A stretch of DNA of 48,022 nt, taken from positions 1 through 48,022 of IMG/VR virus record IMGVR_UViG_3300037245_002824. The stretch is one strand, 5' to 3'. Made by a program: the position numbers and the translations under genes. Of this stretch, positions 1 through 13,854 are shown in pieces (the first letter of the stretch is position 1; every line of letters starts with the position of its first letter). The notes under the pieces are model-generated. The model did no database searches. It worked only from the letters and a program-made list of their open reading frames with translations, and was not told the origin of the DNA. This stretch comes from a virus.

Positions 1-127
1 GATCTTGTCGATCTCTGTTTGCCTGCTTTCTTCCCCCGCTTTGAATTTACTTTTAAGTTCGTTGTCGAACTCTGCTCTTGCGGCGGGGTTTGTGGACAGA
101 AACTCTTTTAATGTTGTTGACATTTTA
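1..127. repeat. Terminal direct repeat, left copy
   Basis: Bases 1-127 are identical to bases 47896-48022. An exact repeat of this length at both ends of a contig is the usual mark of a circular or circularly permuted molecule closed on itself by an assembler. The reading frame of the protease gene continues across the join without a break, which supports circularity. The unique circular length would be 47,895 bp. Confidence 0.93.
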
Positions 128-1035
128 ACCTCCGTTTTATTTTCGGCCACATGTGCGGCCTTTCCCGCAATTGCGGGGGATTTACTATTTAGTATGAATG
201 ATTCGATTTCAGATTCTTTTATTACAGCGTCAATTAATCCGAAAGTTTTAGCGTCGCCAGCGATAAGGACGTCGGCCGCGGTGCTGTTTATTTTTTTAGC
301 TGTGAGGTTTGGGCGACCTTCTATAGCCGCTTTGACAAATACGTTATGCGTATCGTCAAGGTTTTTTATTACAATAGCCTTGCCTTCATCGGTAGCGAGA
401 TCTGGTATCTTCCGTGTGGCTGGAGTGGAGGTTATAACCTCTCTTTTAATACCTGCATCTTCATCTTGTTTGTCCCGGTTAATCCATTCAGCGGCTACAC
501 CTATTGACCCTATTCGGGCAGTGCGTGAAACCGCTGCTATTTTATTTGTTTGAGATGTTAGCCAATAGGCAGCACTCGCTGCGGTGTTGAAAACTATCGA
601 GGTTGTTGGCTTTTTCAAATCGGCGATTACCTGCGCTGTTTGATCACAACCGGAAACATATCCACCGCCTGAATCTGTCATGTAGGCGATGTGGCTTATT
701 TCCGGATCATTATCCGCCATCTTGGATGCTTCCCGGATGTACCGATATGTGGTGACTGTTTCGCCGAAAAAAGCTGAGCAGATATCAACCTGTTGGACGA
801 GCATTCCGGAAATATCGATGTAGGCAATCCCGTTTCTTGATTCATATAATTTTCCATCGTTTCTTTTGAGCGCTTCCGGGAGATCATTTATCCTGGCGTT
901 TTGGATAACGTCTTTTTTTGCAGCCTCAAGGTCGGCGATATTTGTAAACTGTTTTCTTGCGTCCAGGATATAGTTTTTTGTATCAGCATATTTTTCTATC
1001 TGATATTGACTCATTCCGTATATTACAAAAGCCAT
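1..1035 (-). CDS. Head maturation protease, S49 family, fused to C-terminal scaffold (gene crosses the contig junction)
   Basis: This is a procapsid protease that would cleave head proteins during maturation. The start at 1035 overlaps the previous stop as TAATG. The frame is open to base 1 and continues across the circular junction to a stop at 47614, giving about 438 residues. The N-terminal 230 residues look like a SppA/lambda gpC-type S49 peptidase: DSGGGYVSG near residue 122, AASAAYW with candidate nucleophile Ser154, RTARIGSIGV, and a candidate catalytic Lys209 in ATRKIP. The C-terminal part is charged and probably acts as scaffold; Met305 has its own strong ribosome site (129-133), so a shorter scaffold protein is probably also made, as with lambda C and Nu3. 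The position between portal and decoration/capsid genes is canonical. It appears truncated here only because of the window edge. Confidence 0.9.
   Translation of the reverse strand, partial: MAFVIYGMSQYQIEKYADTKNYILDARKQFTNIADLEAAKKDVIQNARINDLPEALKRNDGKLYESRNGIAYIDISGMLVQQVDICSAFFGETVTTYRYIREASKMADNDPEISHIAYMTDSGGGYVSGCDQTAQVIADLKKPTTSIVFNTAASAAYWLTSQTNKIAAVSRTARIGSIGVAAEWINRDKQDEDAGIKREVITSTPATRKIPDLATDEGKAIVIKNLDDTHNVFVKAAIEGRPNLTAKKINSTAADVLIAGDAKTFGLIDAVIKESEIESFILNSKSPAIAGKAAHVAENKTEVKMSTTLKEFLSTNPAARAEFDNELKSKFKAGEESRQTEIDKI
129..133 (-). promoter_or_regulatory. Internal ribosome binding site for nested scaffold gene
   Basis: On the minus strand GGAGG lies 5 nt upstream of an in-frame ATG (123-125) inside the protease gene. 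A site this strong within a coding region is unlikely to be accidental, and it sits where lambda starts Nu3 inside C. Confidence 0.8.
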
Positions 1036-1436
1036 TATGCACCTCCGTAATAGATGTTTTCCATCTGTTTTATAATCTTTTGATACCTGGGTGTTTTTAT
1101 ATCTTCAGGTATAATCTTCCACCGCTGGAGTAGGTAGCCGAGATCAGGGAGGTAGAGGTCACTTTGATGGTTTGCTATTTTTATTCCTTGCTTTTCTATC
1201 TGGGCAAACATCTCTTGATACGATTCTGCGGTAAGCATATCTAATTTTCCGTTGAGCGATTCTATGGCGATTGATAGTGGCTCTATCTTGTTATCAAGAG
1301 CCCTGCCGAATGCGAGTTCTGCGATTGCTGTTAGCTTTTGATCGGGGATTAAATCCGAGAGGGTGTTAACTCCGAATATGAGCCCTAAAAAAATTATTGT
1401 AATTATGTTCCTGTTGGAATCTATCCATGATTTCAT
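1035..1436 (-). CDS. Small membrane protein in the head operon
   Basis: I do not recognise this protein (133 residues). The start at 1436 is chosen because AGGAG precedes it; a longer start at 1469 lacks this. Residues 8-30 form one hydrophobic segment (IITIIFLGLIFGV), followed by a helical, mildly charged domain, so it is probably a bitopic membrane protein. Its stop overlaps the protease start (TAATG), so the two are translationally coupled. A membrane protein between the surface-protein genes and the head protease is out of place for a lambda-like head module. It might be a holin-like or accessory protein, but nothing in the sequence settles this. Confidence 0.7.
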   Translation of the reverse strand: MKSWIDSNRNIITIIFLGLIFGVNTLSDLIPDQKLTAIAELAFGRALDNKIEPLSIAIESLNGKLDMLTAESYQEMFAQIEKQGIKIANHQSDLYLPDLGYLLQRWKIIPEDIKTPRYQKIIKQMENIYYGGA

Positions 1437-1452
1437 TTTTAAATCTCCTGTT

Positions 1453-2253
1453 TTATGGTTGTTCACCAATTGTGAATGAACCGAGCGCGGATGCTGTGAA
1501 ATTGACGTTTCCGACTTGTGGGTCTCTCGACTCTAAACATAGCTCATCTGTTTCGGTGAAAAATCTTATTTCGTTATTGAATATTTCCCGTGTGTTGAAT
1601 GTTATATGAGTTGAAAATATACCACCTACTAATTTTTCGGTATATTCAACTTTTGCTCCACGATCTTTGAAATCTGCATTTGTGTGAAAAGCTCCGAGGT
1701 TTAATCTTCCGGTTGCTGTTTTTTTATACATATATATACCGTTTGTTAAAGCCTCAATCCCTCCAAACAAGCTGTCATCTGGTGCATTATTTCCGCTCTC
1801 GATAGTAATCACAAGTTTTCCTATGTCTATAGGTGTTGTGGATTGACGTGGTTTATATTTATATTTTATGGGAACTGCTAATGTTCCCGTATGATTAATT
1901 ACATCATTTTTCCCGATTACGATCGATGCTCCAACGCTGAACGGAAAAGATGTTTTTTGATCTATGGTTACTGTGTTTCCAGGTACATCAATATCGATTA
2001 TTTTTGACTGTTCGTACAGTGTGTTTTCAAAGATGGCTAAGAGGTCGCCGAGAATGATTCCGGTTACATCGTCGAGCGGTAACACTTCGACCTCTTGTGG
2101 TTGGCTTGATGCGAGAACTCTATCCGTGATGGTTTCTTCGATTAACCAATATTGAAATGGCGGGTTGATGTTTGATTGAACAAATACATCATGTCCTTTT
2201 CCGACTGGATCGAATCCAGAACCTATACCTGGGTTAGTCCCTATCGCCGGCAT
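1453..2253 (-). CDS. Putative virion surface or head-fibre protein
   Basis: 266 residues, no family recognised. The protein is rich in Thr, Ile, Gly and Asn with short alternating hydrophobic stretches, suggesting mostly beta structure, and has no signal peptide. It lies between the portal and the protease in a run of three genes (3271 down to 1453) joined by 1-4 nt overlaps, so they are co-translated. In lambda-like heads this interval often carries accessory capsid or fibre proteins, which is the basis for the call. Function is inferred from position only. Confidence 0.6.
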   Translation of the reverse strand: MPAIGTNPGIGSGFDPVGKGHDVFVQSNINPPFQYWLIEETITDRVLASSQPQEVEVLPLDDVTGIILGDLLAIFENTLYEQSKIIDIDVPGNTVTIDQKTSFPFSVGASIVIGKNDVINHTGTLAVPIKYKYKPRQSTTPIDIGKLVITIESGNNAPDDSLFGGIEALTNGIYMYKKTATGRLNLGAFHTNADFKDRGAKVEYTEKLVGGIFSTHITFNTREIFNNEIRFFTETDELCLESRDPQVGNVNFTASALGSFTIGEQP

Positions 2254-3011
2254 TATACAGCCGCCTTGAGGTCGATATCAAAAGAACCTCTAATCGGTGT
2301 GTTACTAGCTGAAACTTCGATGCACTCCCAAAAAATCCACTCACCTGGTAGCATTTTTATTCCGGCATCCTTGGCATATATTTTCACATCCTCTGTGTTT
2401 AGGGTAGTGAGAGTAGGGTCCCATTTTGTTACTATGGTTCCATCTGTTTTGCGGACTCTCAATCTCATTTGAGCATCATTGGATGGTCCGGTCCTTGCGT
2501 AATCTGTTTTGTGCTGGGTGACGATCGCAGATCTGTTATTTGGTATTCTCTGCACGGCGATTTGCGTTTGCCCTTCGCCGATTTCTATTGTTGCGTATAT
2601 GTTTGCTGATCCATCTACTATTTTTATCTGACCGACATTTGTATTTGATGTTCCTGTTTGATCGATTTCCATCCGGAAAACTCCGAATGAATCTCCGATA
2701 GAAACATTATTTTGACCATCGAGATCCTTGGTTATTTCCTGTTCGATTCCGAGAGAGTCATGGTATGTGATTTTTACCTTTTGAGCGCCGACACCTAATA
2801 TTGTATCTGTGATATCCGTGGACACTATAAATAACTCGATTGCAGCGTCAAGAAAAATATAATCTTGAATCGTTCTTTTTATAGGCCATATTTTTTGAGT
2901 GAGTGCACCAGATGTATCTGCGGTATCGATGTCTATCTGCTCTCCCCATTTCTGGATTGATCCGAGGACAAATGGTTTTTCAGGATTGGAAATACCTCCG
3001 TTACCTATCAT
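2253..3011 (-). CDS. Putative virion structural protein
   Basis: 252 residues, not matched to a named family. It is beta-rich by composition (many Thr/Ile/Val alternations, Gly-Asp turns) with no cysteine cluster or membrane segment. Its end shares one base with the start of the next gene at 2253 and its start overlaps the 87-residue gene upstream by 4 nt. Adjacent genes of similar size and texture suggest a two-part surface decoration or fibre. It could also be a head-tail adaptor. Confidence 0.6.
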   Translation of the reverse strand: MIGNGGISNPEKPFVLGSIQKWGEQIDIDTADTSGALTQKIWPIKRTIQDYIFLDAAIELFIVSTDITDTILGVGAQKVKITYHDSLGIEQEITKDLDGQNNVSIGDSFGVFRMEIDQTGTSNTNVGQIKIVDGSANIYATIEIGEGQTQIAVQRIPNNRSAIVTQHKTDYARTGPSNDAQMRLRVRKTDGTIVTKWDPTLTTLNTEDVKIYAKDAGIKMLPGEWIFWECIEVSASNTPIRGSFDIDLKAAV

Positions 3012-3271
3012 ACATTCACCCTAACCCGGCCGTTTTTGGTAGGCCAGATGTAAATATCTATGATTTCACCACTGTTTATTATTTCACCTTTTTTTGACAT
3101 TTGAACACCTTCGTCTTTTTGCGCTGTGACTGGCGCAAGCTCATCGGTTAATCTGTATGTTTGAAAATAAATAGGCCGTGTTTTTAAAATGTCGATTGAC
3201 CCGGCTTTCACAGCCGTTGCGACCTTTGTCCAGGTGTTAGCTGGACATTCTACAATATATGGATTAGGCAT
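3008..3271 (-). CDS. Small structural protein downstream of portal
   Basis: 87 residues. The N-terminal phrase VECPANTWTKVATAV followed by a predicted beta-rich body resembles small proteins commonly encoded next to portals in lambda-type heads and usually left as hypothetical virion proteins. It overlaps the portal end by 8 nt and the following gene by 4 nt, so it belongs to the head operon. A decoration or stabilising role is plausible; no catalytic motif is visible. Confidence 0.65.
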   Translation of the reverse strand: MPNPYIVECPANTWTKVATAVKAGSIDILKTRPIYFQTYRLTDELAPVTAQKDEGVQMSKKGEIINSGEIIDIYIWPTKNGRVRVNV

Positions 3272-4916
3272 CTTCTATATCCTCCGATTCGTTATCGTTT
3301 TTATTTTCTTGATTTTGTGGTTGCTGCTGAGGTTCCCATGGGGGTACCGGTGTTTGTGGGAAAAACCTGCGATTGGTATTTATGTTTTCTTCTGCAGATG
3401 ATCCGTTCAAGTTTCTGGCTACCCGATTTTGTGTGGTAGCTCCGATTTTAATATTTGTTGCACTCGCATCGGCTTCGCGTTTTGGGTCTATGTTTGGCAT
3501 GGGTGATCCTATCCAGTTACCGCCCATCCATGCAGCCCTGAGATGCGGATCTTGCCAGCCGGGGGCGGATATCCTACCTCCTGCGATTTCTTCGGATAAC
3601 CATGCTTCTTTGATGGGGTTAAGGAAATCCGCTATCATTTCATTTCGCCATATTTGAGCTATCCGCCAAAATACTACTAGCGACGCCCTCGATGCTGAGT
3701 AAGACGAGTTGAATTTCATCAACAACATCTCTATGGGCATACCGATAGACGCTGAGAGATACGATACAAAAGGTGTGATAAACGCCTCGAATCCTTCTGC
3801 CGGGGTTTTATTTTCCAGCAGGGTGAGGTGGTCTCCCTGCTGCATATTGACCACGCCGAGGGATCCTGGGGTCCGCTGTACACTTTCCGGTAGTGGACAA
3901 TAATCAAATGATTTACCGTTATCGGATACGGTTCCAGTTTCGGGGACTGTTTTGTTAAATATCCCGCCCGGATTTGATAGTGTATTTGCCAGGGGGTTTG
4001 ACGGGTCCATTTGTTGATTTTCAACAGAAAAAAGGAAATTGGATTGATTGATCGCCTTTTTTATTTGGGCTAATGAAAAATCTGTTATGTTTTCGAATTC
4101 CTGTATTGCGTGGGATATCCGGGAATATCCGCGACCCTGGTGTGCAAATTCCGGGGAATATCCGTGGAGCATAAAGGTTCTACCAGACCTGGGGCCTTTT
4201 CTTTTTATATTAACCTCTTTAATATCTCGGCCTGTGTTGACGTAGACATTATAAGATAGCTCTTTACCGTTGGAGTCCCGCTCGATTCCATCGGCTCCTA
4301 AAAATTGATAATCAGCGGATGTTATGGAGCATCCCGTGATCTGATTAGGGTCGATGAATCCGAACTGGAGGGGTGATAAAAGAGATTTCTTTTTTGAATA
4401 GTGGAGCTGGGTGAACATATCATTATCCCGCTGTTGCCACATGGCATACATCCGTTGGGCCTGATAAAAATTATATGTTTCTGATATGCAACTTTTTTTT
4501 GATTTTGCCCACATATCGAATCTTTCGGATACATCCGCACCCCATATTTCAGCCTTTTCAGGAGTGGTTCCCAGCTGTCTGAATTTTGGAAGGGCCTCAA
4601 GCACAAGGCCGGTATCGGCTACCGTGTCGGAAAATCTCTCTACGAGGGCTCTTGCTTGGGGGACATCTTGCATCATATTACGGGCTGCTGCTCTGGTTAA
4701 TCCATGGTCTATTGTTGTGTGACTGCTGTATGTGGATAGGCCGCCGGACCATTTTGCACCACCGGAATTATATCCGGTAAAGCCCGATCTTCCATGGCTT
4801 GCGGTTTTATTTATTTCTGGTTTGGTTGGTTTTTTGGGGATTGCGGACGTGATTTTCTTTTTGATTGCATTATACAAATCTTTGCCCTGGATGGCTACGT
4901 CGGAAAAAAAGCTCAT
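3264..4916 (-). CDS. Portal protein, lambda gpB family
   Basis: 550 residues from the ATG at 4916, which overlaps the gpW stop as TAATG behind an AGGAG site; this start is preferred over 4922 for that reason. It would form the dodecameric ring at the packaging vertex. Typical lambda-type portal segments are visible: VQTLVER-like helix (VPQARALVERFSDTV), an FGFIDPNQI stretch around residue 185, a HGYSPEFAHQGRGYSRIS segment, and ASIGMPIEMLLMKFNSSYSASRASL near residue 400. The C terminus is Pro/Gln/Asn-rich and acidic. It is flanked by gpW and the structural genes in canonical order. Confidence 0.93.
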   Translation of the reverse strand: MSFFSDVAIQGKDLYNAIKKKITSAIPKKPTKPEINKTASHGRSGFTGYNSGGAKWSGGLSTYSSHTTIDHGLTRAAARNMMQDVPQARALVERFSDTVADTGLVLEALPKFRQLGTTPEKAEIWGADVSERFDMWAKSKKSCISETYNFYQAQRMYAMWQQRDNDMFTQLHYSKKKSLLSPLQFGFIDPNQITGCSITSADYQFLGADGIERDSNGKELSYNVYVNTGRDIKEVNIKRKGPRSGRTFMLHGYSPEFAHQGRGYSRISHAIQEFENITDFSLAQIKKAINQSNFLFSVENQQMDPSNPLANTLSNPGGIFNKTVPETGTVSDNGKSFDYCPLPESVQRTPGSLGVVNMQQGDHLTLLENKTPAEGFEAFITPFVSYLSASIGMPIEMLLMKFNSSYSASRASLVVFWRIAQIWRNEMIADFLNPIKEAWLSEEIAGGRISAPGWQDPHLRAAWMGGNWIGSPMPNIDPKREADASATNIKIGATTQNRVARNLNGSSAEENINTNRRFFPQTPVPPWEPQQQPQNQENKNDNESEDIEDA

Positions 4917-5194
4917 TAGCATTTTCTCCTGAGATTCATTACGACAAGGCCTTTGCCATCGGATATCCTATAGAGTCTGTCGAGTTGGGCGTTTAATCTG
5001 GTTAGCGATTTGTCGAGTTCTGAGAGCGGGCGGTATTTTGTTTGTTGGCTACCTTCTCCGGATTCAAACTTGTATGATTCAACGTCGCCATTTTCTATGG
5101 CTATGATTTGAGATTCTAAATTATCGCGCCTGGTTTCAAGGGCCGTTATCCTGTCCGTCATCCTGGCTTTTTCGGCAGTTGTAAAACAACTCAT
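4916..5194 (-). CDS. Head-tail joining protein, gpW-like
   Basis: 92 residues. The central part (SYKFESGEGSQQTKYRPLS) and the ending LYRISDGKGLVVMNLRRKC match the pattern of gpW-type proteins encoded just before lambda-like portals. The N-terminal half is a predicted helix/coiled coil. It follows the accessory cassette terminator and has its own promoter (5201-5229) whose -10 box ends 6 nt before the ATG; there is no Shine-Dalgarno, so its mRNA is probably leaderless. Its stop overlaps the portal start. Confidence 0.85.
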   Translation of the reverse strand: MSCFTTAEKARMTDRITALETRRDNLESQIIAIENGDVESYKFESGEGSQQTKYRPLSELDKSLTRLNAQLDRLYRISDGKGLVVMNLRRKC

Positions 5195-5200
5195 TCAGGC

Positions 5201-5229
5201 ATTTTATCACAGAGGTGTAGTGGTGTCAA
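5201..5229 (-). promoter_or_regulatory. Late promoter giving a leaderless gpW mRNA
   Basis: Minus strand: TTGACA (5229-5224), 17-nt spacer, TAAAAT (5206-5201), then 6 nt (GCCTGA) and the ATG of gpW at 5194. Transcription would begin at or next to the start codon. It restarts transcription after the cassette terminator at 5250-5284. Confidence 0.72.
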
Positions 5230-5249
5230 GGATTGATGGGAGTTATGTA

Positions 5250-5284
5250 TAAAAAACCGGCAGCAGCCAACGGCCACCACCGGT
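5250..5284 (-). terminator. Rho-independent terminator of accessory cassette A
   Basis: On the minus strand, from 5284, a 13-bp hairpin (ACCGG...CCGGT, several G-T pairs, GTT loop) is followed by six T. It begins 8 nt after the cargo stop codon. The same sequence, from the TAG stop through the T tract, recurs at 26476-26520 on the plus strand. Confidence 0.85.
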
Positions 5285-5292
5285 ACAAGGGA

Positions 5293-5544
5293 CTAAATCT
5301 CTCTTGCTTTTTGCAAATCATATGCCGGGCCATATCCTCCCCCAGCCTTTAAGTGGTTAAGTTTTTTTTGTGCTAAGGATTTTTCTTTTTTCCATTCTTC
5401 AGAAAATCCCGGCATATCAATAATTTTTTCATCATATCCTTTGACTTGGCCTTCGTAGTACGAAATCAATTCCGATCTATTTTCATTCGTCTGGACAGGA
5501 TACTCTTTAGTAATTTTAAAAAAATCTGTTATTGTCTTAGCCAT
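5293..5544 (-). CDS. Accessory (moron-like) cargo protein A, unknown function
   Basis: 83 residues, starting at the ATG at 5544 behind GGGAGG. The protein is highly charged and mostly helical (KKEKSLAQKKLNHLK) with a Gly-rich GGGYGPAYD segment near the end. I recognise no family. It sits between terminase and gpW with its own promoter, operator and terminator, all nearly identical to those around 26137-26478, while the coding sequence is unrelated from codon 3 onward. That layout is typical of a moron, an independently expressed gene inserted in a structural operon. A host-takeover, anti-defence or exclusion role would fit, but nothing in the sequence proves one. Confidence 0.8.
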   Translation of the reverse strand: MAKTITDFFKITKEYPVQTNENRSELISYYEGQVKGYDEKIIDMPGFSEEWKKEKSLAQKKLNHLKAGGGYGPAYDLQKAREI

Positions 5545-5592
5545 ATTGGCCTCCCTTTGTTTTTGATAGTGTTTCAATCACCATCTACTTAT

Positions 5593-5621
5593 AATATACC
5601 ACATCGGTGGTAGGAAGTCAA
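5593..5621 (-). promoter_or_regulatory. Promoter with internal operator, cassette A
   Basis: Minus strand: TTGACT (5621-5616), 17-nt spacer, TATATT (5598-5593). The palindrome TACCACATCGGTGGTA (5597-5612) fills the spacer and touches the -10 box, so a dimeric protein bound there would block polymerase. The cassette B promoter at 26062-26090 has the same boxes, spacing and palindrome. Confidence 0.82.
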
Positions 5622-5629
5622 GTAAAATA

Positions 5630-7711
5630 TTAATTTAAATCGTTTTTATAGTATTCCTGGTTTTTGGTTTGGACTATGAGCGCTGCGAGGAAGGTTGCTG
5701 TGGTGAATTTCTCAGCTTCTTTTTTTGTCGCTCCCTTGGATACATACTCCCTGCGTAACTGCGCTACGTTGGACCTTAACCATACATCCGAGGCACAAAG
5801 GGAATAAACACGACAATCAAGAGCCTCATTCCTGCGGGAACCTGCGTGGAACGTCTGGTTTAATAGCTGTTCCTCAGCTGTAAGCATTTTAAAATAATTT
5901 TCATACGGACCTGCTTTTCCGTATTCGCGGGGAAAATCGCAGAAACCAGGATTTTGAACTCTCGCATTAATCCGCTTTGTATTCAGATTATTATAGATAT
6001 GGCGTTTATAATAGTTAGTTGCTATCGTATAGAGGACCTGGTCACCTATGGTATTGTGGCGAAACTGGAGGGCGTCGAGTTCTGATATTTCATCACCGAT
6101 TACCTTTTCATTTTTTTGACGTTTCATCTCGCCTTGGCCTTTGATTGGATAGCAAGCTGACCATCCCCTGCCCGTAAACTGATATACTACCGATCGCAGA
6201 TTCCCATCTCCAGAATCAAAAAACATTAACTTCGGATAGAACATGAATCCATCTGCCCTGTAAAATTCCATGTTTGTATCCTCGGCCCATTTATATATTT
6301 TTTCCCATGCTCCGGAATACGCATTATCAACACGGCCATAAAAAACTTTATAATCTATCGACCACGTCCGGTACCCGGCACCTACTCCGAGTATTTCCAT
6401 TTCGATCCTGGGTAGTTCATCTGGGTTGTTTTTTGGATCAGCTAAAAACTCTTTGATTTCTGATTCGGTGATTTCGGAATGTTTCACTTTTCCAGATTGA
6501 ACATCCGCGCCTATTGTCAGGAATAGAACACCTGAAGGAACTGTCCCGGCTTTGTATGTCCCTCGAAGTTCAAGAATCTTTTCAGCTTTTGGCCTGAATC
6601 CCTGTTCCCGGAATGGCCATCCTCCGTACAGATTGGTAAAACCTCTCATTTTTTCCGGCTTGCCTTTTGATACTTTCCACTCGTTGTAATAGTTTAACCA
6701 GCTCACAGTTCCGGGTGGGCTGTACAGGGAATTGATTTGATATGATCGGAATGGTTTTGATTCGCTCTCGGCGGTAGGTTCCCATTTTCCGGCGTTGAAC
6801 ATATCTCTTTTCTTGGTATCAAAAATGGCATCGTGACAGTAATCACAGAGGTAATATGCACTTATGATCATACCGGCGGTGGTATCTGCCCGTAATCCGA
6901 AGTTCCCCTCTTCTGGTAGCCAATATAGTGGTTGATATTTTCCGCATAACGGGCATGGAACTCTGTATTCCCTGCGGTCTCCATTTTCGTAGAGAGGGAA
7001 TATTACACTTTGATCGTAGGTTGTGGGGGTGGATAGATCTGTGATCTTTTTTCTTTCTCCAAAAAACTTAGTCCGGGCAGCGGATACTGTCATGTAGTCA
7101 CCTTCGCCTGTTTTTAGTTCGGCCGGTGCGGAATCGGTTTCGTCCCGGATAAGAACCCGGATAGAATCGGACCTTTGGGATGCTGCAGCTTGGGCGGATA
7201 CTAATTTCAGGAATCCGCCGATAAATTGCTTTGAATACATTTTATCACCGGTCCGTCTGGAACTTTTTGAAAATGTTTGCTCAGCTTGTGATATGATCAG
7301 ATCGCGAATTCCCATGGAATCGATCATAGGCTCAAGGCGTTTTGTTCCCCATTCTTCGAGCAGCTCTCTACTGCCTGACATATACATAATCGCGGCCGGT
7401 AGCTCTTTCATCCAATATCCGATAATATTTTCAATCGCAAATGTTGCGGCAACCTGGGCAGCTTTCAGGATTGCTTGATGCTGGATACCGCTGTACGGCG
7501 CCATATTATCCATCCATTCCCGGGCATATGGAGTTAAGGATAAATCGACTAATCCCGGAAAGGGTGTTCCGGGCGGCATAAGGCGGTTTGATTCTACAAA
7601 ATCGGATATTGATGGTGATGGAGGTTCGCTCGGCATATGATCCAAAAGATTTAACAGGAAATCGATATCGGTGCAAAATCTATCGGAAGATGTTTGATAG
7701 CTACCCGTCAT
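5630..7711 (-). CDS. Terminase large subunit, lambda gpA family
   Basis: 693 residues, a packaging motor and nuclease. The family is recognised from the N-terminal NRLMPPGTPFPGLVDLSLTP and YAREWMDNM segments, the ATPase region with RVLIRDETDSAP (Walker B-like, near 190) and LSTPTTYDQS, a zinc-binding CPLCGKYQ...CDYCH pair near residues 255-300, and a C-terminal nuclease region beginning LTIGADVQSGK with LMFFDSGDGN and NEALDCRVYSL. The Walker A region (KAAQVAAT) is degenerate, as is usual in gpA proteins. It overlaps the small subunit by 11 nt. gpA-type terminases generally cut at cos sites, so the packaged form is probably linear with cohesive ends. Confidence 0.95.
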   Translation of the reverse strand: MTGSYQTSSDRFCTDIDFLLNLLDHMPSEPPSPSISDFVESNRLMPPGTPFPGLVDLSLTPYAREWMDNMAPYSGIQHQAILKAAQVAATFAIENIIGYWMKELPAAIMYMSGSRELLEEWGTKRLEPMIDSMGIRDLIISQAEQTFSKSSRRTGDKMYSKQFIGGFLKLVSAQAAASQRSDSIRVLIRDETDSAPAELKTGEGDYMTVSAARTKFFGERKKITDLSTPTTYDQSVIFPLYENGDRREYRVPCPLCGKYQPLYWLPEEGNFGLRADTTAGMIISAYYLCDYCHDAIFDTKKRDMFNAGKWEPTAESESKPFRSYQINSLYSPPGTVSWLNYYNEWKVSKGKPEKMRGFTNLYGGWPFREQGFRPKAEKILELRGTYKAGTVPSGVLFLTIGADVQSGKVKHSEITESEIKEFLADPKNNPDELPRIEMEILGVGAGYRTWSIDYKVFYGRVDNAYSGAWEKIYKWAEDTNMEFYRADGFMFYPKLMFFDSGDGNLRSVVYQFTGRGWSACYPIKGQGEMKRQKNEKVIGDEISELDALQFRHNTIGDQVLYTIATNYYKRHIYNNLNTKRINARVQNPGFCDFPREYGKAGPYENYFKMLTAEEQLLNQTFHAGSRRNEALDCRVYSLCASDVWLRSNVAQLRREYVSKGATKKEAEKFTTATFLAALIVQTKNQEYYKNDLN

Positions 7712-8318
7712 CCTGATTCCGTTTTTTCAACTCGAGTTTGTATTCAATATTTAATTTTTTGAATGCATCTTGAATTACTCTCTTTTTATGGGCCTGGATT
7801 TTATACAGCTCTTCGTCGAGGATTTTTGTTACCTGCGTTACTTTTTCAGGATCGTTATCATCAAACACGGACGCTGCTATCGTGTTGCCGATCGAAGCTG
7901 ATAACTGGAGTGTTTGGTTTTGATCGATTGAAAACAGGGTTGAAAAAATCCTTGCTACGAACTCCCTGGGGATGAGCGTATTCAGCTCCTTGTCGTTTGC
8001 GATATCAATCTTGGTTATATCCCGTTCTAGTTTTTTACACTGGAGTTTATTTTTTTCTGTTGATTGAGGTTCTTGTGGTGGTTGATCTTCATCCGGGTGA
8101 TTTGATGGCGTGATGACTACCTGCTTTCGAACGCCTTTTCTTTGGGCTGGGGTGTTGCTGATATATTCCTGGACGGCGATGTCTTGCAGATCTATACATT
8201 TTTTCCCGTTATAGATAACGGTTGTTATATTTCCAGAAGTGAGCTGTTTTGTGATAGCGCCCTTGGTAACACCTGCCATTTTCGCAAGTGCCACCTGGGT
8301 TATGTAGTGATCAGTCAT
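7701..8318 (-). CDS. Terminase small subunit, Nu1-like
   Basis: 205 residues. The N terminus (ITQVALAKMAGVTKGAITKQL) is a MerR/Nu1-type winged helix-turn-helix, followed by a Pro/Gln linker near residues 70-95 and a helical C-terminal half likely to carry oligomerisation and large-subunit contacts. There is no Shine-Dalgarno; the start overlaps the upstream stop as TGATG, so translation is coupled. It would recognise the packaging site, and a 25-base sequence lies across its own start (8316-8340) and again at 8621-8645. Confidence 0.88.
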   Translation of the reverse strand: MTDHYITQVALAKMAGVTKGAITKQLTSGNITTVIYNGKKCIDLQDIAVQEYISNTPAQRKGVRKQVVITPSNHPDEDQPPQEPQSTEKNKLQCKKLERDITKIDIANDKELNTLIPREFVARIFSTLFSIDQNQTLQLSASIGNTIAASVFDDNDPEKVTQVTKILDEELYKIQAHKKRVIQDAFKKLNIEYKLELKKRNQDDG

Positions 8319-8340
8319 CAGCTATGGGGTCGCATATGAT
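8316..8340. repeat. 25-bp direct repeat near terminase, copy 1
   Basis: This copy matches 8621-8645 at 22 of 25 positions and shares the core TATGGGGTCGC. It overlaps the terminase small-subunit start. Two imperfect copies about 305 bp apart beside the terminase gene are candidates for terminase recognition sequences of a cos region. Confidence 0.6.
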
Positions 8341-8542
8341 CATGTGGATATACTTTTGAAAGATTATATTTGAAAGCTGAAAAATCTACATTTATTCTTA
8401 GTAGGATTATATCATATGGCAATTTCAATTTGTCACTAAGGAAGAGAATAAAGTCGTAAGTCAATAGTCGAGAACCTTCTGTAGCTTGTTGATGTGTGCG
8501 TCGCCGTGGATTTCTTTTATAACCTGTTGGTATTTCAATCAT
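8318..8542 (-). CDS. Small basic protein at head of packaging operon
   Basis: 74 residues from the ATG at 8542, no family recognised. The N terminus is basic (GYKRNPRRRTHQQ), the rest is helical. The start is chosen because a good promoter (8549-8577) ends its -10 box exactly 6 nt before this ATG, the same geometry as gpW and the gene at 9544, and no Shine-Dalgarno is present. The stop overlaps the terminase small-subunit start. A DNA-binding or packaging role is possible from charge and position only. Confidence 0.62.
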   Translation of the reverse strand: MIEIPTGYKRNPRRRTHQQATEGSRLLTYDFILFLSDKLKLPYDIILLRINVDFSAFKYNLSKVYPHDHMRPHS

Positions 8543-8548
8543 TTTTAA

Positions 8549-8587
8549 ATAATAACATAAGGTATACCAAAAGTCAAGCGGTATACC
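8549..8587 (-). promoter_or_regulatory. Packaging-operon promoter with paired GGTATACC operators
   Basis: Minus strand: TTGACT (8577-8572), 17-nt spacer, TATTAT (8554-8549), 6 nt, ATG at 8542. The perfect palindrome GGTATACC occurs at 8561-8568 in the spacer and at 8580-8587 just upstream of -35, 19 bp centre to centre (about two helical turns). A related AAGTATACTT lies at 8591-8600. Same-face spacing suggests cooperative binding by a regulator. Confidence 0.75.
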
Positions 8588-8620
8588 AGCAAGTATACTT
8601 TGCGCGAAAGTCTGGCACAT

Positions 8621-8645
8621 CATCAGTTATGGGGTCGCGTAGGAT
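8621..8645. repeat. 25-bp direct repeat near terminase, copy 2
   Basis: Second copy of the sequence at 8316-8340, with 3 mismatches. It lies in the stretch without genes upstream of the packaging operon, where a cos site would be expected. Between here and the tRNA-like element I see only a short hairpin (GAGCG/CGCTC, about 8701-8722). Confidence 0.6.
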
Positions 8646-8749
8646 AAGCCCATATGCAAACACATACCCCTCACAGTACCTTTTTGATTTGATTTAAAAT
8701 GAGCGCCTTTGTAGCGACGCTCTTGTATGATGATGATAGTATATCAAGT

Positions 8750-8833
8750 TTGATGAGAGAGGACTTGAACCTCTGACCTTTGTTCCTGCCATTCCTGGCG
8801 GCGGCAACGCTCTACCTTCTGAGCTACTCACCA
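8750..8833 (-). tRNA. tRNA-like element with abnormal anticodon arm
   Basis: Minus strand, 84 nt. The acceptor TGGTGAG/CTCATCA forms 7 bp including G3-U70, then U8-A9, a canonical D arm (GCTC, loop AGAAGGTA, GAGC) and T arm (AGAGG, loop TTCAAGT, CCTCT), with discriminator A and no encoded CCA. Between D and T arms are 34 nt that do not form a 5-bp stem with a 7-nt loop. The best fold there is a hairpin of about 6 bp closed by GGAA, a GNRA tetraloop. It starts on the base after the stop codon of the gene at 8834. It could be a decayed tRNA, a tRNA-like regulator or a decoy. G3-U70 is the alanine identity element, but no alanine anticodon is displayed. Confidence 0.6.
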
Positions 8834-9544
8834 TCACTTAAACTTTAATTGCCTGCGGACCTGCTTTGCCCATTCGGGCTTGACCTTAAACTTATTAGCA
8901 AGCATTCGGATAGCAGGTTTCATCCAAGATTTTTTAATTGGTTGTTTGGGCTTTTTAAACGACTGCAACCTCATCATTTTCTTTTTTTTCATCTGGAAGA
9001 TGCCGCGAGAAAACCTTTTTAATCGACCTTTGTATTTTCGCCGTGTTTTGAATGGCTGATTTTTGATAGTGCCTTTGCGGACCATCGATAGGAACGATGT
9101 CAGGCGGGCTTGCCTTGTTTTTCCGACTCCTTCCTGATCAGGATCGAGAAAAGTATTTGCCGTTTTTGTCCGAGCCTTTCCGCTCACTTTATTCGAGAAT
9201 TTACCGCGTCTTGATGCGAGCGTTTGCGTTCTCGTTCTCGGATCTTTTTTGCCTTTTTCCTGCTCGACAAATCCGGTGAATCTCGGACCGCGAACAGTTC
9301 CGACTTCTGCTGACATTTTAGAGAGCTTCATGCCCTTGGTTTTTTGAACGCGGATTTTTCGTTTAATAAACTTTTCGGATCTGATGACCATGTTTTTATT
9401 CAGAGAGACAAAAATTAAATCTTTGAGTTTAAAAGCTGCCGAATCAAGAAATCCTTTAGCGGCGAATGTGAATTGTTTAAGACCTCTTGTTTTCAAAAAT
9501 AATTCGAGATTTTTAAAATCTGTCAGATCTGCTGATAACATCAT
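8834..9544 (-). CDS. Basic protein resembling minor tail protein Z (gpZ-like)
   Basis: 236 residues from the ATG at 9544, very rich in Lys and Arg. The N-terminal TDFKNLELFLKTRGLKQFTF...AAKGFLDSAAF pattern resembles prophage minor tail protein Z, and FTGFVEQEKG near residue 90 also fits that group. The start is set by the promoter at 9551-9579, whose -10 box ends 6 nt before this ATG; there is no Shine-Dalgarno. It is the first gene of the late unit, far from the tail genes on the linear window but directly upstream of the terminase block. The resemblance is moderate; a nucleic-acid-binding protein is the alternative. Confidence 0.6.
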   Translation of the reverse strand: MMLSADLTDFKNLELFLKTRGLKQFTFAAKGFLDSAAFKLKDLIFVSLNKNMVIRSEKFIKRKIRVQKTKGMKLSKMSAEVGTVRGPRFTGFVEQEKGKKDPRTRTQTLASRRGKFSNKVSGKARTKTANTFLDPDQEGVGKTRQARLTSFLSMVRKGTIKNQPFKTRRKYKGRLKRFSRGIFQMKKKKMMRLQSFKKPKQPIKKSWMKPAIRMLANKFKVKPEWAKQVRRQLKFK

Positions 9545-9550
9545 GAATAA

Positions 9551-9579
9551 AATATGCATATTTTAAACTAGTAAGTCAA
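9551..9579 (-). promoter_or_regulatory. Late promoter giving a leaderless mRNA
   Basis: Minus strand: TTGACT (9579-9574), 17-nt spacer, CATATT (9556-9551), then 6 nt (TTATTC) and the ATG at 9544. It has the same geometry as the promoters at 5201 and 8549. Confidence 0.65.
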
Positions 9580-9637
9580 GCATTTTATGACATATTTATT
9601 AAAAACAGTAGAATTTCATAATAAAATAGTGATATGT

Positions 9638-9674
9638 AATCGTTTAATTATCTATGTTATAAGAAATTAAACGA
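9638..9674. repeat. 11-bp inverted repeat
   Basis: ATCGTTTAATT (9638-9648) and its exact reverse complement AATTAAACGAT (9664-9674) flank a 15-nt loop. It could be an operator or a cruciform/hairpin in the control region. There is no T tract that would make it an obvious terminator. Confidence 0.7.
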
Positions 9675-9783
9675 TCTTAAAATTATTTTACCACTAAACA
9701 CATAGTAAAAAGAGAGTACGGTATTATAAAAAAACAGTCAATCCATTATAGCCCTATTCCTTATCCCATATAGAATTAAGTAT

Positions 9784-9919
9784 GTTTATAATAGTTATAA
9801 TACTTATAAGTAATATATTTATATATATATAATAATAGGGTAACAGGGATGCTCGGACCCTTAAATTCGCGCGCAAAATTGATTTATGAATTTAAAAAGT
9901 ATTATAACTATTATAAAAC
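9784..9919. repeat. 22/23-bp inverted repeat around a GC island
   Basis: The arms at 9784-9805 and 9897-9919 are reverse complements except for one extra base, separated by 91 nt. Each arm contains the TTATAA-rich 12-mer that recurs at 10048-10059. The length and near-perfection exclude chance even in AT-rich sequence. Confidence 0.75.
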
Positions 9920-10083
9920 TTTTAATTCCTTTCCCAGTAAGGAATTATTTATGATTCACTTTTTATCAACAAAAGTGTAAAAACTCTCTAACTATCTACA
10001 CTAATTGAAATTATATCAATTATAAAATCACTTATAAAAAACAGTAAAAGTATTATAACACTCACGGTACATAAAAAAAGTTC

Positions 10084-10140
10084 TTGACAATTCAACACAA
10101 ATCAATTATGTTATAATCAACAAATCAACACAAGTTGATT
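10084..10140 (+). promoter_or_regulatory. Early promoter and operator
   Basis: TTGACA (10084-10089), 17-nt spacer, TATGTT (10107-10112). A palindrome AATCAACACAAGTTGATT with 7-bp arms (10123-10140) overlaps the start of the transcript, and CAACACAA also occurs in the spacer. The palindrome is well placed to be a repressor site. The promoter reads into the early operon at 10170. Confidence 0.78.
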
Positions 10141-10169
10141 TTCAAAAAACAAGATAGGAGTAAAAAAAG

Positions 10170-10592
10170 ATGAGAGATTTTATACATACAGCAAATCAAG
10201 AGATGATAAATATTAAAAATTGTGACTTTATAATGAGAGAATTTGAAAAAGGTGAGCAATTACCATGGAGAATAGTTTTTCATTTTTCAGAAAAAGCCGC
10301 ATATCAGGAGTTTAAAACAGAAAAAGAGCGGGCTGATCAATTAAAAATCATTCGAGAAAATTACAGTACTAATATAGAAGAGATTGGAAAAGAAGAAGAT
10401 CTTCTTTCTGCTGAATACTCTCTTGAAATCATCCCCACAACGGACCAAGAAGCTGACGAAATCGCTTTAAAAATCTTTGGACTAGGGCCTTATTTGGAGA
10501 TTTTTAGGTGTCATTATTACGAAAACAGGGCAACTAAAACAGTAAAAGAGGCTTATCGTGCAGTTCTTTTATTAACCGGAAAGAAGGCTTAA
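10170..10592 (+). CDS. Hypothetical early protein
   Basis: 140 residues, first gene of the early unit, behind AGGAG. The product is acidic, helical and soluble, with no family recognised. A charged central helix (KTEKERADQLKIIRENY) and a C-terminal segment (TVKEAYRAVLLLTGKKA) are the main visible features. As the promoter-proximal early gene it may act in host takeover or regulation, but this rests on position only. Confidence 0.75.
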   Translation: MRDFIHTANQEMINIKNCDFIMREFEKGEQLPWRIVFHFSEKAAYQEFKTEKERADQLKIIRENYSTNIEEIGKEEDLLSAEYSLEIIPTTDQEADEIALKIFGLGPYLEIFRCHYYENRATKTVKEAYRAVLLLTGKKA

Positions 10593-10594
10593 TC

Positions 10595-10828
10595 ATGGAA
10601 AAATGGATACAATCATACGCTGGATTCATCCGCGACCTGCCACAAAGCGGCCTTCAGATGGCCCTTAAAATAAGGCAAAAAACAAAGAAATCACAGGATA
10701 AAATCATAAATTCTGAGAACCTCAAAACAACTCAATATTACCTCAAAGGTGTGCGCGAAAACACCATCGAAATTGCCATTATTCAGGGTGAAATCGAGTA
10801 CAGAAAACAGGTAGGTAGCACCACATGA
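10595..10828 (+). CDS. Hypothetical small early protein
   Basis: 77 residues, starting 2 nt after the previous stop, so translation is probably coupled. Basic and helical, rich in Lys and Gln; no motif recognised. Its stop overlaps the next start by 4 nt (ATGA). Confidence 0.7.
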   Translation: MEKWIQSYAGFIRDLPQSGLQMALKIRQKTKKSQDKIINSENLKTTQYYLKGVRENTIEIAIIQGEIEYRKQVGSTT

Positions 10829-11031
10829 GAGTACAATTAATAAACGCCTCGTTCGTCGGTGAATGGCCACGCTCCGACAAAGAAGCTCTATCGGTAATCA
10901 ACAGAAGAGTAGACCATTCCTTCACCCGTGCCCTCTTAAAAGCTAACTACCTGGTACACCGTGGCCATGGCCAGAGCATCGACACCTCGTGGCGAAAAAC
11001 CTATTCAAACCACAAAAGGAAATGTCTATGA
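10825..11031 (+). CDS. Hypothetical small early protein
   Basis: 68 residues, ATGA overlap with the gene before. The C-terminal half is rich in basic residues and His (VHRGHGQS, YSNHKRKC). No family recognised. Its end overlaps the start of the next gene by 4 nt. Confidence 0.65.
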   Translation: MRVQLINASFVGEWPRSDKEALSVINRRVDHSFTRALLKANYLVHRGHGQSIDTSWRKTYSNHKRKCL

Positions 11032-11705
11032 AAGATTTAAAAAAACACTATGATCTAACAATTAAATGCCTTAGGTGTGAGCCGAGATTGGGCATGGTCA
11101 CTTGCCTGATGTGTAAAGATCATAAGGAAATGTATAAGTATAGAGATAAACTCCTATCCGCATACAATCTAAAAAAAACCGATAAAGATGTAAGTATCAT
11201 TCTCGAAATGTACTATTGTATGGAAACCCTTACGCTTAACGGCTGGAAGTTGAGATGGCACTCTACAAGCTATCATGAATTTGAAAATGGATTTAAACTA
11301 ATGATATTTGGCGGTACAGATTACAAAGAGATTGTCATTCAAGAGATAGGTAAAGATCATATATTCCTAAAGCTCTCACGGGAAAACATAATCCCCTTAC
11401 TACCGGAAAACTACATCTTGCCAGACGGTCCCGAAACCCCGCCGGAAGGATTAGAAAAAATCCACACATCACCACCATCAATCACAGAATACATCGAACA
11501 GCTCGAACAACCCCATGGAGAGATTACTATTATTGATCTCGGAATATGGAAATACCCGCCACAAAAGCCATCCCCTAACTCAGAAATATTGATACTCTGG
11601 AGAGATAACAGGGCCACCATACACATATCACCTGAAATCCCTTTAGAGTTTAGCGACGAAGTGAAGAGGTGGTGTTATACCATCGATTTACATAAATTAG
11701 TTTAA
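11028..11705 (+). CDS. Hypothetical early protein with N-terminal CxxC pair
   Basis: 225 residues. The start at 11028 fits the AGGA site about 7 nt upstream better than 10989. Near the N terminus CLRC and CLMC, 11 residues apart, form a possible zinc site. The middle is mixed alpha/beta, and a Pro-rich segment (LPDGPETPPEGLE, near 130) separates it from the C-terminal part. No family recognised. It is the last gene before the terminator at 11762. Confidence 0.72.
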   Translation: MKDLKKHYDLTIKCLRCEPRLGMVTCLMCKDHKEMYKYRDKLLSAYNLKKTDKDVSIILEMYYCMETLTLNGWKLRWHSTSYHEFENGFKLMIFGGTDYKEIVIQEIGKDHIFLKLSRENIIPLLPENYILPDGPETPPEGLEKIHTSPPSITEYIEQLEQPHGEITIIDLGIWKYPPQKPSPNSEILILWRDNRATIHISPEIPLEFSDEVKRWCYTIDLHKLV

Positions 11706-11761
11706 ACACCGTGTTACGGTTTTAATATTAAAAGTCCCCAAAAGGGCAGGTAAATATTTTT

Positions 11762-11795
11762 CCTGTTAGCTGCTGCCTCGGCTAACAGGTTTTTT
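11762..11795 (+). terminator. Rho-independent terminator of first early operon
   Basis: Perfect 9-bp stem CCTGTTAGC/GCTAACAGG with a 10-nt loop, followed directly by six T. It closes the 10170-11705 operon. Confidence 0.92.
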
Positions 11796-11808
11796 AAAGG
11801 ATAACAAA

Positions 11809-12030
11809 ATGAAAGAACAATCCAGAATAACAATATCCATGGACGATGATCTCCTAAAGGATTTTAGACATATATGTATTGACGCCGGTTTCGGAAGTGC
11901 CCCTCAAGCAATCCGCGTTCTGATCGGGGCAGTCATTAAAAATCCAAATATATTTAAAACAGATTACACCCCAAAAAAGAAAAGAAAATCAACCAAGAAA
12001 AACCAAAAACCTGGAAAGGGCAGTGCGTGA
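11809..12030 (+). CDS. Ribbon-helix-helix regulator
   Basis: 73 residues. The N-terminal RITISMDDDLLKDFRHIC strand-helix followed by a second helix (SAPQAIRVLIGAVI) fits CopG/Arc-type RHH DNA-binding proteins. The C terminus is a Lys-rich tail. It would bind DNA as a dimer; the palindromes at 10123-10140, at the cassette promoters and at 8561-8587 are possible targets, but nothing ties it to any one. Its stop overlaps the GTG start codon of the ORF at 12027. Confidence 0.72.
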   Translation: MKEQSRITISMDDDLLKDFRHICIDAGFGSAPQAIRVLIGAVIKNPNIFKTDYTPKKKRKSTKKNQKPGKGSA

Positions 12031-13036
12031 GCTGGCACTATTTACAGGCGCAGGTGGAGGTCTGCTCGGATCACATATCCTGGGATGGAAAACAGTTTGC
12101 GCCGTCGAAATCGAAAAGTATCCTCGGTCAGTACTGCTTGCAAGACAGCGTGACGGAATCCTCGACAGGTTTCCGATATGGGATGATATTAGAACGTTTG
12201 ACGGCACCGAATGGCGTGGCCGATGTGATATTATTACCGGGGGGTTCCCTTGTCAAGACATTAGCACCGCAGGGAAAGGCGCTGGAATCTATGGTAAAAA
12301 ATCCGGACTCTGGAGAGCTATGGCCTGGGTGGTTCACGAAGTTAGACCGAGGTTCGTCTTTGTGGAAAACTCCCCAGCTCTTACTGGACGGGGACTTAAT
12401 GTCGTACTCAGAGACCTGGCCGAAATGGGGTATAATGCGAGGTGGTGTGTGCTGGGAGCTGATGACGCCGGAGCGCCCCACAGAAGGAAGCGAATATGGA
12501 TATTGGCCTACACCGACAAAGAGCGACCACATCGGAGCGGGCAGAGGTCCAAACAAACAGGGCGGGGAAAATCTGAGAACAGCTGTAAAATATCCGACTC
12601 CAACAACCAGGGATTGGAGATCAGGAAAAGCAAGCGAAAAAACAATGAACAAAAACAGCCGTCCTTTGAACGAATTTATAATAAGTGGTGGCAAACAGAC
12701 CCCGCCGACGTACCCCACGCCTCAAAAAAGAGACTGGAAATATGGTCAGAAAAAGAGGGTAGACCGGAAGGGCTATCAAAACAACCTGAACGATCATGTA
12801 TTAAAATACCCCACGCCAACCTGCAACAGAAAAATGGCCGGTACTATGGAAGAATGGGGAGGCAGTGGCAACAAATTCAGAGGTACATTGAGGGGGAAAG
12901 GCCAATTAAACCCGGATTGGGTCGAGTGGCTCATGGGGTGGCCCACAGGGTGGACCGCATTAAATCAATCGGGAATGGTCAAGTTCCAGCAGTGGCAGCG
13001 CTCGCATTCATTATTCTTTCAGAAGGATTGATATGA
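12023..13036 (+). CDS. DNA cytosine-C5 methyltransferase (Dcm-like)
   Basis: 337 residues, GTG start at 12023. Conserved C5-methyltransferase blocks are present in order: LFTGAGGGLLGSHILGW (motif I, AdoMet), GGFPCQDIS (motif IV, catalytic Cys), FVENSPAL (motif VI), GAPHRRKRIWILA (motif VIII) and KSIGNGQVPAVAALAF (motifs IX-X). The target-recognition region between VIII and IX is a low-complexity, hydrophilic stretch. It probably protects phage DNA from host restriction. The entire gene is overlapped by a second open frame (12027-13031). It ends in an ATGA overlap with the next gene. Confidence 0.93.
   Translation: MRELALFTGAGGGLLGSHILGWKTVCAVEIEKYPRSVLLARQRDGILDRFPIWDDIRTFDGTEWRGRCDIITGGFPCQDISTAGKGAGIYGKKSGLWRAMAWVVHEVRPRFVFVENSPALTGRGLNVVLRDLAEMGYNARWCVLGADDAGAPHRRKRIWILAYTDKERPHRSGQRSKQTGRGKSENSCKISDSNNQGLEIRKSKRKNNEQKQPSFERIYNKWWQTDPADVPHASKKRLEIWSEKEGRPEGLSKQPERSCIKIPHANLQQKNGRYYGRMGRQWQQIQRYIEGERPIKPGLGRVAHGVAHRVDRIKSIGNGQVPAVAALAFIILSEGLI
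12027..13031 (+). CDS. Long ORF fully overlapping the methyltransferase gene in another frame (WPTP-repeat protein)
   Basis: 334 codons, same strand, shifted by one base. The GTG at 12027 overlaps the RHH stop as GTGA, a coupling used elsewhere in this phage, and GGAAAGGG lies about 6 nt upstream. The predicted protein is Trp- and Pro-rich with repeated phrases (WPTPTKSD, YPTPTTRDW, YPTPQKRDW, YPTPTC) and ends NPDWVEWLMGWPTGWT. I recognise this wording from many phage proteins annotated beside or as methyltransferases. It may be a genuinely expressed overprinted gene, or a by-product of constrained codons in the methyltransferase target-recognition region. Confidence 0.45.
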   Translation: MSWHYLQAQVEVCSDHISWDGKQFAPSKSKSILGQYCLQDSVTESSTGFRYGMILERLTAPNGVADVILLPGGSLVKTLAPQGKALESMVKNPDSGELWPGWFTKLDRGSSLWKTPQLLLDGDLMSYSETWPKWGIMRGGVCWELMTPERPTEGSEYGYWPTPTKSDHIGAGRGPNKQGGENLRTAVKYPTPTTRDWRSGKASEKTMNKNSRPLNEFIISGGKQTPPTYPTPQKRDWKYGQKKRVDRKGYQNNLNDHVLKYPTPTCNRKMAGTMEEWGGSGNKFRGTLRGKGQLNPDWVEWLMGWPTGWTALNQSGMVKFQQWQRSHSLFFQKD

Positions 13037-13266
13037 AAGATAAATATAACATTATAACAGTGATAATAATTATACTATTATTTCCGGTTATCGCCTTGTT
13101 ATATGCACTATACCGCGTAGAAAAAGCACATCAACGCAGATTAAAAGTCAAAGTGGATACCTGCGAAATATGTAAACCGGATTGCAGATACCACAACCAC
13201 AAAAACGCTTGGTTTATAGCATATTGCATAAAAAAACAGGAGGGTAAAAAAGATGATGAAAAATAA
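13033..13266 (+). CDS. Small membrane-anchored Cys-rich protein
   Basis: 77 residues, ATGA overlap with the methyltransferase. Residues 6-28 form a strong transmembrane helix (IITVIIIILLFPVIALLYALY); the following positive segment (KAHQRRLKVK) suggests an N-out, C-in orientation. The soluble tail carries CEICKPDC and a later Cys, which could bind metal. No family recognised. Confidence 0.68.
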   Translation: MKDKYNIITVIIIILLFPVIALLYALYRVEKAHQRRLKVKVDTCEICKPDCRYHNHKNAWFIAYCIKKQEGKKDDEK

Positions 13267-13483
13267 AAAACCTTGCAAGAAAGAAAAACAACATAAATGG
13301 AATTATTATGAATCATATGATTATGATTATGATAAATTGAAATTAAAATATCAATTTCGTGTTTGTAAAAAATGCGGTCATGCCCAAGAATATAGATGGC
13401 ACATGACGTGTTATGTGTGGAGCTTTATCAGCTATTTTACAAATGTTGGTGCAAAGCAATTTATTAAGGGTTATGGAAAATGA
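13253..13483 (+). CDS. Small zinc-ribbon-like protein
   Basis: 76 residues behind AGGAGG, overlapping the previous gene by 14 nt. CKKCGH near residue 38 plus another Cys near 53 hints at a zinc site; the N terminus is Lys-rich and a YDYDYD stretch follows. No family recognised. Confidence 0.62.
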   Translation: MMKNKKPCKKEKQHKWNYYESYDYDYDKLKLKYQFRVCKKCGHAQEYRWHMTCYVWSFISYFTNVGAKQFIKGYGK

Positions 13484-13599
13484 ACACTTATAAAATAACA
13501 TGGAAGTATATTGATATCCCCCCGGAAACATATATCGCTGAAACACCTGGAAAGGCGAAATATCAATCTTATCTTTATTGGCAAGATCTGGAAAAATAA
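13480..13599 (+). CDS. Very small protein, 39 residues
   Basis: A short ORF linked by ATGA overlap to the previous stop, ending just before the small-RNA promoter. The peptide is aromatic (YKITWKYIDI at the start, AKYQSYLYW near the end). The overlap and uninterrupted frame support translation. Function unknown. Confidence 0.5.
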   Translation: MNTYKITWKYIDIPPETYIAETPGKAKYQSYLYWQDLEK

Positions 13600-13602
13600 T
13601 AC

Positions 13603-13631: not shown

Positions 13632-13637
13632 TAATTC

Positions 13638-13758: not shown

Positions 13759-13854
13759 GTACCATTATAAAGCGCCTTCTTTTTTTTAAATGACAGCCCG
13801 GAAAGACGGGCATTTTATAACTGATGCATGTTGGTTAAAATAAAGGAGATATTT

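Follow-up and report, generated by a model that had tools for sequence, protein, structure and literature searches.

The sequence analysed here, referred to as the window, is a viral record of 48,022 bases. A 127-nt repeat at its ends suggests that the assembly is circular. Early genes lie on the plus strand of the window and late genes on the minus strand. The phage is isolated, with a single TerL relative at 44% identity (L003). Two complete expression units are present in the window. Frame A (positions 5247 to 5626, minus strand) is situated between the terminase large subunit gene and a small pre-portal gene, and frame B (26057 to 26525, plus strand) is situated in the early operon after a helicase gene. 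The distance from the upstream stop codon to the start of the frame is about 6 and 14 nt, respectively. An earlier note on this DNA had placed frame A between terminase and gpW. The position was correct, but the neighbouring gene had no Pfam match, and we use "gpW-position" as a positional label. Directly after frame A, a predicted strong promoter, TTGACA-17-TAAAAT (5229 to 5201, minus strand; 11/12, with TG), leads into the gpW-position and portal genes. It is one of the two top-scoring promoter-like sites in positions 1 to 16000.

When the two units were aligned, the 5′ flanks (5626 to 5541 on the minus strand and 26057 to 26140 on the plus strand; 86 nt) differed by one substitution and three small indels. 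This region contains the promoter, a spacer palindrome, the leader, the ribosome-binding site (RBS) and the first codons. The 3′ flanks (5295 to about 5243 and 26476 to about 26527), which cover the stop codon and the terminator hairpin, agreed at 49 of 53 positions, and no shuffle reached this alignment score. Exact runs of at least 12 nt common to both units measured 43, 22, 21, 14 and 12 nt; the 43-nt (GATTGAAACACTATCAAAAACAAAGGGAGGCCAATATGGCTAA) and 22-nt (CTACCACCGATGTGGTATATTA) runs belong to the 5′ side, and the longest run on the 3′ side is 21 nt. Further, a 27-nt piece of the leader and a 20-nt piece of the 3′ flank each occur exactly twice in the window (0 expected), and after GGGAGG both units read ATGGCTAA. 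The alignment thus confirmed the earlier description of two units with a common promoter, palindrome, leader, GGGAGG, first codons, stop codon and terminator. The open reading frame (ORF) lengths (83 and 113 amino acids), GGGAGG and the promoter TTGACT-17-TATATT were also as described.

Each unit begins with this promoter-like sequence and an extended −10 (5593 to 5621, minus strand, with TG, in frame A; 26062 to 26090, plus strand, in frame B). Between −35 and −10 lies an operator-like palindrome, TACCAC-CGAT-GTGGTA (5597 to 5612, minus strand), of which the copy in frame B (26071 to 26086, plus strand) is identical. The palindrome TACCACCGATGTGGTA has exactly two exact sites in the window, both at these promoters, and one further site with three mismatches in a late-gene region; three matches were obtained in 0 of 100 shuffles. 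Inverted repeats as long as this one arose in approximately 0.7% of shuffled spacers. Repressor sites are often found in the interval between −35 and −10. The identity of the two palindromes makes it plausible that one DNA-binding repressor acts on both copies. The earlier note had a single regulator controlling every copy; the identical operator-like palindrome supports this, but a gene for the regulator was not found. As no third promoter carries the palindrome, the regulator cannot be recognised by control of its own gene. Candidates are a host protein, an RHH protein with a weak repressor match (11809-12030) and the product of frame B itself.

Two other promoter regions of the window contain repeats. 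At 8549-8587, before the terminase small subunit gene, two copies of GGTATACC, 19 bp apart, surround the −35 of a TTGACT-17-TATTAT promoter. The phage has no further copy, and the pair is likely a second, different operator. At 10084-10155, TCAACA/TTGATT repeats, including AATCAACACAAGTTGATT, surround the early promoter TTGACA-17-TATGTT.

Downstream of the promoter, a hairpin, GGCCA-AUA-UGGCU, is predicted in frame A (5539 to 5551, minus strand), adjoining GGGAGG (5550-5555), and the corresponding hairpin of frame B (26130 to 26142, plus strand) adjoins GGGAGG at 26126-26131. The hairpin GGCCAAUAUGGCU takes in the start codon and codon 2 and is identical in both copies, and hence shows no covariation. 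The leaders folded better than shuffled sequences (z = −3.9 and −2.1 for the two copies). An Rfam search of the leader returned no known RNA family. Translation could also be controlled through the start-codon hairpin, which would account for codon 2 (GCT) being common to both units. It might be proposed, from the folding scores and the common codon 2, that the shared element acts mainly on translation or at the RNA level, through the hairpin and leader, and that the palindrome is incidental. However, the leader belongs to no Rfam family, its identical copies provide no covariation and the spacer palindrome is itself improbable by chance; we consider this reading distinctly unlikely. At the other end of the units, terminator A comprises a 13-bp hairpin and a T-run (5250 to 5284, minus strand) and terminator B a hairpin and a T-run (26487 to 26520, plus strand). 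The two differ by one substitution and small indels, and the main stem is kept.

Between these flanks, frame A encodes a protein of 83 amino acids (cargo A; 5293 to 5544, minus strand) and frame B one of 113 amino acids (cargo B; 26137 to 26478, plus strand). Codon-usage scores support the stated frame for both ORFs. No family match was found for cargo A, which is thus an orphan; weak Pfam matches to Dynamin/GTPase (E = 0.03-0.07) were below the cut-offs and were rejected. The two cargos are not homologous. Their local DNA alignment score was 12 against a shuffle mean of 13.4, with 822 of 1000 shuffles scoring as well, and neither blastp nor profile comparison gave any match. Further, the predicted folds differ: cargo B was modelled as alpha/beta (pLDDT 88) and cargo A as all-alpha (pLDDT 70, a single-sequence model of low confidence). 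The earlier observation that the two proteins show no visible similarity therefore holds for both DNA and protein, with nothing above shuffles. The same note had stated that it would be refuted, in favour of a simple old gene duplication, if the flanks occurred nowhere else and the proteins were structural homologues; what we found instead is a control frame common to both units around non-homologous genes.

Flanks this alike cannot surround homologues that have diverged beyond recognition, and a cargo was therefore replaced, or the frame was captured twice. An old duplication of the whole cassette would require the genes to have diverged beyond recognition while selection kept the flanks. The flanks do contain functional elements, which could be constrained, and the differences between the terminators spare the main stem. 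However, leader positions without evident constraint are identical, yet the ORFs retain no residual similarity in DNA or protein. Cargo B is a recognisable member of its family over nearly its whole length, and thus has not drifted beyond recognition, and the difference in predicted folds, with model A of low confidence, points the same way. An old whole-cassette duplication is thus largely refuted, and we assign it hardly any likelihood. Another process that could keep the control regions of two long-separate units alike is gene conversion (concerted evolution). With a RecT system present, conversion between inverted copies in one genome could occur, and identity drops at the ORF boundaries. 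Gene conversion, however, needs a prior homologous frame with a different cargo anyway, and the two copies already differ by indels and substitutions; we therefore regard it as very unlikely.

Cargo B is a clear member of an unnamed family that is widespread in phages, with the consensus YFDYLxGRVMKVDL...WLYDRDNGxGAA, and the core YFDY...GRVMKVDL...YDRDNG is present in the protein. Relatives were found at 50 other viral loci, with 34-54% identity over the matched segments, and G26, F53, G58, D78 and G80 were invariant in an alignment of 38 sequences. Named relatives are Dulem virus 39 XCD07496.1 and Gilgamesh gp28. The family had no Pfam or PHROG match; a Pfam match of cargo B to CsbD (E = 0.09) was below the cut-offs and was rejected. 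A fold search of the cargo B model against solved structures gave no significant match, and one against a viral library matched only uncharacterised proteins. For cargo A, the viral-library fold search yielded nothing informative. In Dulem virus 39 and Olaya, the relatives of cargo B lie close to recombination genes. Most relatives are without a strong promoter and terminator of their own, and L057 is the clearest other stand-alone case. A spacer palindrome was present in three family members (the window, L046 and L053/L054), each of a different sequence, and the promoter palindromes of L046 and L053 occur once each in their own records. Near the cargo B relative in L053, there is also a 124-nt repeat (3377-3500 and 6134-6257; 96% identity), which seems to contain a 23-codon mini-ORF and a terminator.

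It had been suggested that the cargo has an anti-defence or lysogenic-conversion role. Neither role is supported, given that PADLOC gave no defence or anti-defence match, that no integrase or CI-like repressor was found among the phage proteins scanned and that cargo B belongs to an unnamed phage family. For the same lack of an integrase or CI-like repressor among the scanned proteins, there is no sign of a prophage state. Further, a sequence search against solved structures gave no significant match to cargo A or cargo B.

The phage carries other features that we note here. At 21071-23599, one protein joins an SNF2-type helicase and N6/N4 DNA methylase domains. A small protein encoded at 13828-14208 has a signal-peptide-like start and a dockerin type I match, within a phage genome. 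Within 14194-14660, a tRNA-like match (Rfam 32.9 bits, no ARAGORN call) is followed by about 400 nt that are apparently non-coding and hold a second copy of a T-arm-like sequence, GGTTCAATTCCGG.

We compared the two units with known mobile or repeated phage elements. Neither terminal inverted repeats nor target duplications were detected: the longest matches measured 7 nt (inverted) and 3-4 nt (direct), which is near chance. A transposable unit was therefore rejected. Similarly, the units are unlike integron-type cassettes, as their promoter lies inside the unit and no integrase was found among the proteins scanned. A moron is a self-contained gene with its own promoter and terminator. At the level of sequence, both units share this organisation, with a promoter and terminator around an accessory gene, and are self-contained genes between functional genes, in the direction of the operon. 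They differ from morons in that the whole frame is common to the two units and the genes are different. A PeSL lies between genes, where it combines the terminator of one with the promoter of the next, and a genome contains many of them. In the window, in contrast, promoter and terminator flank one ORF, and only two copies are present. In T4-like phages, PeSLs are described as promoter-terminator sequences that are repeated between different small genes and mediate gene shuffling between related phages (Arbiol 2010 and Comeau 2014, as cited in PMC4503421). In cluster K mycobacteriophages, ESAS/SAS comprise a repeated promoter, an overlapping inverted repeat and a conserved start-proximal sequence before genes of different families (PMC3203893, PMC11373665). 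The units of the window likewise have a SigA-type promoter and an inverted repeat before unrelated genes, but the sequences are unrelated, and the start region GGGAGGCCAATATGGC does not conform to the SAS consensus near the start codon, GGGATAGGAGCCC. Further, ESAS are 5′ elements, with about seven copies in Adephagia, whereas the window has two complete units, each with its own terminator; the common 3′ flanks of Adephagia gp75 and gp91 probably reflect the next ESAS. The pair thus belongs to neither ESAS nor PeSL and is best filed as moron-type units from one frame with the cargo swapped.

The gap between TerL and portal genes is an insertion hotspot. It is occupied by other, opposite-strand ORFs in L003, by several small ORFs in ZRG1 and by a single opposite-strand ORF in Rostov 7. 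RcOceanus has nothing extra, and its TerL and gpW-like genes are adjacent; frame A thus resembles a moron also in being inserted between genes that adjoin each other in a relative.

The earlier note had viewed the frame as portable. We looked for further copies with exact-pattern scans of the promoter/operator in 2.9 million viral contigs and 84,980 genomes, and of the RBS/start region in the viral contigs. In the viral contigs, neither an exact 21-mer nor the palindrome and −10 with a 4-base wildcard identified another copy of the frame; 13 viral matches to the palindrome were unrelated sequences lacking the promoter and leader. The RBS/start region gave no other copy in the 2.9 million viral contigs, and the promoter/operator pattern gave none in the 84,980 genomes. 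BLAST detected no meaningful match in phages or, for cassette A, in plasmids, and matches of 22-24 nt were attributed to chance. Portability between phages is accordingly unsupported rather than disproved, and the absence is weak evidence because the lineage is poorly sampled (one TerL relative at 44%). Had each cassette been acquired independently, from a pool of phages that share the frame but vary its cargo, the exchange would be complete from start to stop, as it is here. Each site lies at a gene boundary, insertion at site A is tolerated in relatives, and PeSL and ESAS are precedents for common control sequences at different genes. Against these points, no second phage with the frame emerged from the viral contigs, the genomes (promoter/operator) or BLAST, and we consider separate capture unlikely.

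We favour, with moderate confidence, the reading that a moron-type unit was duplicated in the phage lineage and that one copy was refilled by short-homology recombination, both units probably being under one repressor. The ancestral unit would have had the order promoter, repressor site, leader, RBS, ORF, stop codon and terminator. It would have been doubled within the lineage fairly recently, with copies landing just after the terminase stop codon and in the early operon. The short identical flanks would then have allowed recombination to exchange the complete ORF of one copy, from start to stop; the phage's own YqaJ/RecT pair is the simplest candidate for this step. The window encodes a YqaJ-type exonuclease (15378 to 16424, plus strand), a candidate partner for short-homology exchange, and a RecT-type annealing protein (16995 to 17828, plus strand), a candidate mediator. 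RecT-like phage annealases can act on homologies that are short or diverged; for Red-beta, the shortest segment that pairs efficiently is cited as 23-27 bp (PMC3945230). The 43-nt run exceeds this minimum, and the 21-nt 3′ run is slightly below it. From these genes and run lengths, we infer that RecT-type exchange across the flanks is the simplest route. A relative with the ancestral, unswapped state was not found, and the order of events was thus not observed. In the present phage, host sigma-70 polymerase would transcribe each unit independently of the surrounding operon, from which its terminator would insulate it. In the packaging operon, the strong promoter just downstream of frame A could restart transcription of the gpW-position and portal genes. 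The same repressor would silence both units via the identical palindrome between −35 and −10. The pair would thus clearly illustrate how, within a duplicated expression unit, one gene can take the place of another along its entire length, a kind of event whose outline is already familiar from other phages.

To look for similar pairs, we used a detector for cases in which two ORFs encoding dissimilar proteins are preceded by a common repeat of 28-400 nt, ending at each start codon. In a first run on 93 sequences, with Adephagia ESAS as the positive control, it recovered ESAS and the window pair, and detected one pair in Dulem virus 39, three in L026 and one in L031. None was detected in Olaya, phi5218, Rostov 7, ZRG1, RcOceanus, the first 50 kb of T4 or the terminase loci; the PeSLs were not recovered in this part of T4, which thus provides no second positive control. 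A second run on longer stretches of four uncultivated phage records (G003 without its last 3.9 kb) detected one pair in G005, two in G006, one in G003 and none in G004. In G005, a cargo B relative and its neighbour encode unrelated proteins behind a common 56-nt leader (91%), and the 3′ side is also common (25 of 27 positions, terminator-like); this is the closest parallel to the window pair. In G006, two copies of a three-gene block have conserved flanks between the genes, but the genes themselves are largely unrelated. Repeats in L063 proved to be tandem paralogous genes and were rejected as swapped cargo.

Details of individual pairs are as follows. In L026 (1826-4219), two copies of a three-gene block lie about 1.6 kb from each other; their intergenic flanks are conserved at 96, 90 and 89% identity, and the first and third genes are not homologous. 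In Dulem virus 39 (L117; 35331-35401 and 42281-42351), a helicase gene and an unrelated gene have a common leader with the palindrome TTGTCCGGACAA. In another phage (L135), a 181-nt repeat (88%) at 4310 and 5277 precedes two non-homologous ORFs (226 and 217 amino acids).

These pairs raise the wider reading that refillable frames are a general mode of accessory-gene exchange, that the cargo B family is a frequent occupant and that cargo B may regulate the palindrome here. The last point draws on the relatives in L046 and L053, which have a different palindrome at the same spacer position of their own promoters. L031 and L026 were reached through cargo B, and the link of such pairs with its family is therefore subject to ascertainment; we hold the wider reading to be rather unlikely. 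The window pair itself captures gene replacement with unusual clarity, each breakpoint coinciding with an end of the ORF. It suggests a computable rule, namely to seek, within single phage genomes, gene pairs with shared flanks and unrelated cargo. This rule recovers the known ESAS as well as new cases, and could list accessory genes that are candidates for exchange, together with the control elements able to receive them.
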